Shown here: positions 40,698 to 42,166 of the stretch, piece after piece
How the letters are laid out: every line of letters begins with the position of its first letter
Position numbering within the stretch: position 1 is the stretch's first letter
NCBI GenBank assembly: GCA_026982315.1
Contig: JALSHI010000043.1
Location: 1 to 55,396 of the forward strand
Reading direction: 5' to 3'
DNA length: 55,396 nucleotides
DNA from: Lysobacterales bacterium
GTDB taxonomy: Bacteria > Pseudomonadota > Gammaproteobacteria > Xanthomonadales > Marinicellaceae
Position numbers and translations under genes: made by a program
Notes under the pieces: generated by a model
What the model saw: the letters and a program-made list of their open reading frames with translations, nothing else
Databases searched by the model: none
Told to the model about the DNA's origin: nothing

Positions 40698-40717
40698 TTT
40701 ATTTGGAGGATCGACAG

Positions 40718-41239
40718 ATCGCTAAAGCACAAAAAACACGGCGCAACAAGGAAATTACTGCGCCAGAGGTCCGCTTGATTGACCATAACGGTGAACAGGT
40801 AGGGATCGTCTCTCTTCAGGAAGCACTGGATCGGGCTGCCGGTCAAGGTCTGGATTTGGTGGAGATTTCGCCCAAGGCGGAGCCGCCGGTGTGCAAAATC
40901 ATGGATTTTGGCAAATTCCGGTTTGACCAGCAGAAGAAGCTTCAGGCGTCCAAGAAAAAACAAAAACAGGTACAGCTCAAGGAAGTTAAATTTCGGCCGG
41001 GTACTGAGGAAGCCGACTTTCAGGTCAAACTCCGTAATTTGCGCCGCTTTCTTGATCAGGGAAACAAGGTTAAGGTCACTGTGCAATTCCGCGGACGGGA
41101 ACTGGCGCACCGGGAAATTGGCGCGGCTATTCTGGACAGGCTGGAAGAAGAACTGAAAGATGAAGCTGTGGTAGAACAACGCCCGGCAAAAATGGAAGGC
41201 CGGTTTATGATTATGCTGCTGGGACCTAAGAATAGGTAA
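40718..41239 (+). CDS. infC: Translation initiation factor IF-3, with an ATC start codon
   Basis: IF-3 of 173 aa with the N-terminal domain ([22 protein letters not shown]), the linker and the C-terminal domain ([20 protein letters not shown]). IF-3 rejects wrong start codons and keeps subunits apart. No ATG or GTG exists at the right place. A strong GGAGGA (40705-40710) is followed after 7 nt by ATC at 40718. The in-frame TTG at 40703 overlaps that Shine-Dalgarno and cannot use it. IF-3 genes elsewhere start with AUU, AUC or AUA, which lets IF-3 limit its own synthesis, so ATC is taken as the start. It follows thrS by 20 nt. Confidence 0.92.
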
Positions 41240-41291
41240 AACCCAGCCCAAAATCGCTTGAACCGGGCTTTGTCAGTCATAACGTTTTATC

Positions 41292-41396
41292 CCGTGCATG
41301 GACGCACGGTTGTGGCGCCAGCCACGCGATTCGGCTTCGGGCGTGTACCGAAGCTGACGTCCACGATCAAGCCAGGAGAGCTTGTATCGTGTTTTT
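41292..41396 (+). ncRNA. Structured RNA unit, copy 1 (three hairpins, pseudoknot, terminator)
   Basis: Predicted elements in order: H1 CCGTGC/GCACGG with loop ATGGAC (41292-41309); H2 GTGGC/GCCAC with loop GCCA (41312-41325); H3, ten pairs including one G-U, loop GCGTGTA (41331-41357); linker CGTCCA (41358-41363), which can pair with TGGACG of the H1 loop region (41299-41304); H4 CACGATCAAGC/GCTTG-T-ATCGTG (41362-41391) with T5. The pseudoknot would use two bases of the H4 foot. H4 plus T-run looks like an intrinsic terminator, with one C-A mismatch at its top here. No coding gene explains it. Structure is by eye. Confidence 0.72.
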
Positions 41397-41413
41397 GGAA
41401 AATTATATTTTCA

Positions 41414-41518
41414 CCGTGCATGGACGCACGGTTGTGGCGCCAGCCACGTGAGTCGGCTTCGGGCGTGTACCGAAGCTGACGTCCACGATCAAGCCAGGAG
41501 GGCTTGTATCGTGTTTTT
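41414..41518 (+). ncRNA. Structured RNA unit, copy 2 (three hairpins, pseudoknot, terminator)
   Basis: Direct repeat of the previous unit, offset by 122 nt, with 3 differences in 105 nt: two in the unpaired H2-H3 linker and one at the top of H4, which here restores a C-G pair. H1 41414-41431, H2 41434-41447, H3 41453-41479, H1-linker pseudoknot 41421-41426 with 41480-41485, terminator H4 41484-41513 with T5 at 41514-41518. It ends 83 nt before rpmI, so a readthrough decision here would control rpmI-rplT. Confidence 0.72.
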
Positions 41519-41601
41519 AAATAACGAGCTCAACTAAGTGCGAAAGCAGTAAAGCCGTTTTTGGCTACTTACGCGAGTATAAAAACCAACAGGAGTGTTA
41601 C

Positions 41602-41796
41602 ATGCCCAAGATGAAAACCAAGCGAGGTGCTGCCAAGCGCTTCAAAAAAACCGCCAGTGGTTATAAGCGAGGCCATGCCTTTACCAGCCACATCCTGACC
41701 AAAATGTCTCAAAAGCGTAAGCGCAAGCTGCGCGGGACCACACAGGTCGATAAAGCGGATGTGAAAGCAATCAAGAAAATGATGCCCTATTCATAA
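41602..41796 (+). CDS. rpmI: 50S ribosomal protein L35
   Basis: Basic 64-aa protein with the family start [20 protein letters not shown] and the [20 protein letters not shown] end. AGGAG precedes the ATG by 7 nt. In E. coli the L35-L20 pair is repressed by L20 through structures reaching from infC to rpmI. Here the 362-nt space between infC and rpmI is instead filled largely by the two structured repeats. Confidence 0.97.
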
Positions 41797-41809: not shown

Positions 41810-42166
41810 ATGGCACGAGTTAAAAGAGGCGTGATTGCACGCCGTCGACACAAGAAAATTCTCAAAGCGGCAAAAGGTTATTACAATGCCCGGCGCAAAG
41901 TCTATCGCGTCGCCAAACAGGCGGTGACCAAGGCCGGGCAGTATGCCTACCGTGACCGCAAGCAAAGAAAACGGCAGTTCCGCAGATTGTGGATTACCCG
42001 CATTAATGCCGCTGCGCGTGAATGTGGTTTATCGTACAGCCGATTTATCAACGGTCTGAAAAAAGCCAACATTTCCCTTGATCGCAAGGTTCTGGCTGAT
42101 ATGGCCGTGCATGACAAAAAAGGCTTTGCAGCGGTTGCCGAGCAAGCAAAGGCAGCGCTGAACTAA
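41810..42166 (+). CDS. rplT: 50S ribosomal protein L20
   Basis: 118-aa rRNA-binding protein essential for early 50S assembly ([40 protein letters not shown]). The N-terminal basic extension and globular C-terminal domain are complete; in E. coli the latter mediates autoregulation. Thirteen nt after rpmI, with AAGGAGT as ribosome-binding site. Confidence 0.97.

Follow-up and report, generated by a model that had tools for sequence, protein, structure and literature searches.

A tandemly duplicated four-hairpin RNA with GGA loops between infC and rpmI in a Lysobacterales bacterium, a candidate CsrA/RsmA target

Locus and gene context

The window analyzed here (the whole stretch of DNA, 55,396 nt) comes from a Lysobacterales bacterium of the Marinicellaceae. 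Two near-identical RNA units lie between infC, whose stop is near 41239, and rpmI, which starts at 41602, and a separate leader element lies between these units and rpmI. The features of the locus, in coordinates of the window, are:

40718-41239, forward strand: infC (IF-3), upstream gene of the units, start probably ATC
41292-41396, forward strand: unit 1, H1-H2-H3-H4 plus T5 (repeat search, folding)
41292-41309, forward strand: H1 of unit 1, hexaloop AUGGAC with C-G closing pair, GGA at 41300-41302, a Csr/Rsm-type ANGGAN loop (consensus from PMC7652899)
41312-41325, forward strand: H2 of unit 1, GUGGC GCCA GCCAC, 13 of 14 bases the same in congeners
41330-41358, forward strand: H3 of unit 1 (folding)
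41358-41363, forward strand: linker CGTCCA of unit 1, complementary to TGGACG at 41299-41304, a possible pseudoknot that is not conserved
41362-41396, forward strand: H4 of unit 1, GGA loop at 41375-41377, T5, intrinsic-terminator-like
41414-41518, forward strand: unit 2, H1-H2-H3-H4 plus T5 (repeat search, folding)
41414-41431, forward strand: H1 of unit 2, hexaloop AUGGAC, GGA at 41422-41424
41434-41447, forward strand: H2 of unit 2
41452-41480, forward strand: H3 of unit 2 (folding)
41480-41485, forward strand: linker CGTCCA of unit 2, complementary to TGGACG at 41421-41426
41484-41518, forward strand: H4 of unit 2, GGA loop at 41497-41499, T5, intrinsic-terminator-like
41526-41583, forward strand: family-wide rpmI leader element outside the units, candidate L20 site (covariation, family search)
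41602-41796, forward strand: rpmI (L35), downstream gene of the units
41810-42166, forward strand: rplT (L20)

In the start region of infC (40705-40720), a GGAGG motif is followed 8 nt on by an in-frame ATC (40718), which is a likely non-canonical AUC start. Non-canonical starts of this type are usual for infC, and the TTG start listed for the open reading frame is probably wrong. A scan of the interval between the units and rpmI did not find a sigma-70-like promoter, and the genes 3' of the units therefore probably rely on read-through. As the genes from rpmI onward are essential, some read-through past the terminators is expected.

Sequence and fold of the two units

A repeat search found exactly two copies of a 105-nt sequence, offset by 122 nt and 97% identical with 3 differences, as the first-pass annotation had described. 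Each unit folds into four consecutive hairpins (H1 to H4), and in both units a T5 run comes after H4. Folding z-scores were -4.7 for unit 1 and -5.6 for unit 2, with none of 200 shuffles being equally stable. The statement that none of the differences breaks a helix was nearly right; two of the three each cost unit 1 one terminal pair found in unit 2, namely the G-C pair at the base of H3 and the closing C-G pair of the H4 loop.

A terminator scan detected both units by the criterion for an intrinsic terminator, a G+C-rich hairpin followed by a U-tract. The T5 after both H4 hairpins and the very stable fold are consistent with plain tandem terminators, i.e., two strong hairpins that would end most infC transcripts with no ligand involved, the upstream hairpins merely stabilizing the 3' end.

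Distribution and relation to known RNA families

Copy counts rest on blastn and covariance-model searches of the host genome (2.24 Mb, 99% complete). With blastn and with R1, a covariance model built from the two window units, the only matches genome-wide were the two tandem units at infC-rpmI. A dispersed structured repeat, one of the options considered earlier, is excluded for the host genome because these two side-by-side units are the only copies there. Among 33 family genomes, R1 found a single further copy each in the congeners G001 (E 2e-7) and G002 (E 8e-6). Both copies are likewise located between infC and rpmI and represent one ortholog per congener. Within the family, the unit is confined to one genus, in which three species carry the ortholog site. 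The covariance searches proposed in the first-pass annotation were thus positive for the two congeners and negative across the class-wide sample, where no match at E <= 0.001 was found outside the host genome (368 other genomes). A search of a plasmid collection gave no match.

The order (398 genomes) and one of its families (233 genomes) were searched with R2, a four-sequence model. R2 added three matches above chance, L046 (2.6e-8), L066 (3.1e-6) and L047 (9.4e-6), all of which are in other families of the same order and none of which is at a locus related to rpmI; L047 and L071 (Xanthomonadaceae bacterium DHS20C11) are one and the same locus. Since R2 was built with the GGA columns, these three distant matches are biased towards GGA. 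Weak R2 matches with E 0.003-0.05 per genome among the 398 genomes were at the level expected by chance, and three blastn matches (L003, L004 and L006) were judged to be chance similarities on sequence inspection. A sequence-pattern scan of genome contigs yielded 12 loci; two are the match loci of G041 and G443 and the others were weak with R2. Overall, the unit is an RNA of genus level, and its few distant look-alikes may be either homologous or convergent. Just upstream of the look-alike in L047 (1120-1430), several near-identical repeats (GACTCCCGCTGGTCGCGATAATT...) are found beside a tRNA.

The look-alikes at unrelated loci in other families, and the fact that relatives of genus g3 carry other repeats in the same infC-rpmI gap, are compatible with a mobile or dispersed structured repeat that landed here by chance. 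However, the host genome has two adjacent copies only, the position is orthologous in three species, and the class-wide sample yielded no other copy at E <= 0.001; this explanation is already largely refuted and must be considered extremely unlikely. The repeats in the genus g3 gaps (L021, L026, L027, L029, L032, L034, L035 and L036) are structured, several of them tandem (e.g., GTCGCAGTGATTACGGTTTCGCGCAGCGAAGAAGTGGTCATGAAGACAC), and show no apparent sequence relation to the window units.

In a search of Rfam, no family was above threshold for the units. The gyrA RNA (RF01740) matched unit 2 over H3-H4 (41446-41528) with 29.2 bits (E 2.9e-5 for the genome), below the gathering score of 45. As this match is sub-threshold and limited to unit 2, unit 1 and the congener orthologs having none, the unit was not assigned to gyrA RNA; the units are also not adjacent to gyrA. 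A class-wide search for gyrA RNA detected no members, neither in the genomes nor in the controls, and is therefore uninformative on kinship. The match of unit 2 rests partly on CGUGAGUC, which is different in unit 1. The unit is a genuine structured RNA with no known family assignment; it is narrowly distributed and apparently undescribed.

Conservation among the orthologs

Alignment of the two units with the congener orthologs was nearly gap-free across the three species, with 88% of cells paired and a covariation score of 0.364 versus 0.197 in shuffles (0/500). Covariation, the absence of which would have removed the novelty according to the first-pass annotation, is therefore present above every shuffle. 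All four hairpins are kept in the congeners despite diverged stems; in H4, 6 of 11 pairs show changes on both sides (i.e., compensatory changes) and a bulged U is retained. In sequence, the H1 loop and H2 (13/14 identical across the genus) are better conserved than H3 and H4 (only about 45% identity).

The H1 loops in the genus are AUGGAC, ACGGAU and ACGGAC and the H4 loops are CAGGAGR and ACGGAAG, with GGA invariant in both loops across the three species. These are the sole GGAs of the unit in all four genus sequences; they are unpaired with a probability of 0.96-1.0 in both units and both orthologs, and lie 74-75 nt apart. All sequences examined, including the three distant matches, fold as consecutive hairpins, and unpaired GGAs in the distant matches are also found in H1 and H4 (spacing 77-90 nt), except for partly open extras in L047.

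The T-tract after H4 is absent in the congener orthologs (L010 and L011) and in the three look-alikes, and only the host species has a T run. The terminator is therefore not supported as a conserved expression platform. Since the orthologs keep a covarying H4 without a T-tract, termination alone fails to explain the conservation, and the higher conservation of the H1 loop and H2 compared to H3 and H4 also argues against plain terminators, which we consider a rather unlikely explanation.

A possible pseudoknot between the H1 loop and the linker

The exact complement between TGGACG and CGTCCA is present in both units, as is the T5 after each terminator hairpin, and the pseudoknot and the terminator foot share two bases (C and A); these parts of the first-pass annotation were confirmed. 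It had gone on to propose a tandem riboswitch-like attenuator, in which the H1-loop/linker pseudoknot would act as an aptamer that competes with the terminator. Tandem aptamer-plus-terminator layouts exist, the pairing in the window comprises 6 bp with -7.8 kcal/mol in both units, and L010 pairs 6 bp at the same place with one G-U (-5.3 kcal/mol). In L011, however, the pairing is broken at two positions (-0.8 kcal/mol), an equivalent was not seen by inspection in L046 or L047, and the pseudoknot is not maintained by covariation in the three species, all of which speaks against a conserved aptamer. While the two-base overlap is real, the competition would be mild because the terminator stem retains -12.0 of -16.3 kcal/mol when the shared bases are removed. 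With the T-tracts being unconserved as well, an aptamer with an expression platform is possible for the host species, without comparative support, and a riboswitch-like attenuator appears quite unlikely.

A separate rpmI leader element and possible control by L20

The element at 41526-41583 is located directly before the rpmI ribosome-binding site in every readable family genome except the divergent G003. Among 16 sequences of this element, 8 of 13 pairs show compensatory changes (35 cells versus 10.9 in shuffles, 0/500), and AGU...ACUU is invariant. R3, the model of this element, gave one match per genome in 28 family genomes, and every listed family match is located some hundred bases upstream of rplT, at the place of rpmI; in the rest of the order R3 was absent save for one weak match. 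The element has no Rfam match and does not obviously resemble the E. coli region in sequence.

The units themselves had been suggested to represent an L20/L35 leader, and they lie between infC and rpmI, the interval in which E. coli L20 binds a pseudoknot that extends from the 3' end of infC to close to the start of rpmI (PMC6962249). The E. coli L20 translational operator and the Firmicutes L20 leader (RF00558) share this genomic interval and the Firmicutes leader works with a terminator, but the units show no sequence or Rfam match to these leaders and a distinct family-wide leader is also present here. Moreover, the units occur in one family genus and are not conserved before rpmI across relatives, whereas the 41526-41583 element is, and the look-alikes of the units are found at loci unrelated to rpmI. 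It is thus very unlikely that the units are L20 (or L35) binding sites feeding back on rpmI-rplT. Because it is family-wide and covarying, whereas the units are found in one genus only, the leader element appears to be the better candidate for L20 control. The gap holds two separate signals, a genus-level RNA that changes fast and a leader found across the family; with the latter, L20 autoregulation in this lineage can be tested directly.

Possible binding of CsrA/RsmA by the units

A high-affinity Csr/Rsm (RsmE) site consists of a hairpin with an ANGGAN hexaloop, and two sites can be bridged by a CsrA dimer (PMC7652899); because CsrA is a dimer, GGA-loop hairpins usually come in pairs (PMC4333381). 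The H1 loop, with its closing C-G pair, fully matches the ANGGAN hexaloop that is the signature of high-affinity Csr/Rsm sites, while the H4 loop in the window (CAGGAGG/CAGGAGA) is an imperfect ANGGAN. Each of the three species of the genus has a csrA gene that scores above the cut-off. As the H1 loop fits the consensus, the GGA loops come as a pair and csrA is found in all three species, we propose, with a probability of about 40%, that the unit is a CsrA/RsmA-type hairpin pair that was duplicated and given terminators in the host species, and that it may tune how much transcription continues past infC into rpmI-rplT-pheST or what becomes of the infC 3' end.

Specifically, the unit would be a genus-specific four-hairpin module in which the GGA loops of H1 and H4, about 75 nt apart, represent paired sites for a CsrA/RsmA dimer. 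In the host species this module would have been duplicated and H4 would have acquired a U-tract, so that the infC transcript would run into two intrinsic terminators in tandem ahead of rpmI-rplT-pheST. CsrA on the GGA loops would most likely alter the frequency of termination or the stability of the terminated infC 3' end, and the terminated 3' fragments may also hold some CsrA. Transcription of the units, termination at them, CsrA binding and the direction of regulation are what we infer from sequence. A more specific form, a CsrA-responsive tandem attenuator in which CsrA at the H1 GGA loop would exclude the pseudoknot with the linker and thereby tune both terminators before rpmI-rplT-pheST, is improbable; if it held, the supply of ribosomal proteins would be tied directly to the carbon-storage regulator.

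The GGA loops are spaced by 75 nt within a unit and by 47 nt from H4 of unit 1 to H1 of unit 2. The bridging range reported for E. coli CsrA is 10-63 nt between sites, which the linear 75-nt spacing exceeds. GGA is not an unusual motif in GC-rich loops, and the ortholog carriers are three species only; both are counterpoints to the CsrA reading. In its favor, strong AYGGAY hairpins in a 255-kb sample of the host genome were found only at the two units; a genome-wide enrichment of such hairpins was considered and rejected on this basis.

CsrA has been found to promote Rho-dependent termination of pgaA and to prevent Rho-dependent termination in the Legionella gap operon (PMC5338858), and it binds sRNAs that lie between the dual terminators of rRNA operons in E. 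coli (PMC8144298). CsrA control of the infC-rpmI-rplT-pheST operon through tandem terminators was not found described in the literature. If CsrA binds these hairpins, a global carbon and lifestyle regulator would act on this essential operon via tandem terminators.

Comparison with known Csr/Rsm-type RNAs

The closest layouts among known CsrA-related RNAs differ from the unit in several respects. TwoAYGGAY (RF01731), a proposed CsrA-binding RNA, likewise has a pair of hairpins with AYGGAY-type loops, and H1 of the unit is exactly AYGGAY. However, the unit has four hairpins, an H4 loop that is not AYGGAY and a location between infC and rpmI with terminators, and the TwoAYGGAY model gave no match to the units at E <= 10 and none to the orthologs. 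The Csr/Rsm sRNAs (CsrB/C, RsmX/Y/Z) share repeated GGA-loop hairpins and an intrinsic terminator at the end, whereas each unit has just two GGA hairpins, lies in an operon gap rather than behind its own promoter and matches none of the corresponding Rfam models. The E. coli sRNAs RrA/RrB/RrF (PMC8144298), for which interaction with CsrA has been shown, also involve tandem terminators at ribosome-related genes; the likeness is one of layout, and here the unit itself is duplicated with each copy having its own terminator. By analogy, the unit may work like a Csr/Rsm-type RNA joined to intrinsic terminators, its membership in this group being putative.

Adjacent hairpins with CATGGATG or CAGGGATG loops were also observed at L074 (6150-6230; Pseudoxanthomonas sp. 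GM95) and L077 (a Natronospirales MAG), for example CCGTGCATGGATGCACGG followed by GGGACATGGATGTCCC, and these are possibly CsrA-type hairpins in other gammaproteobacteria.
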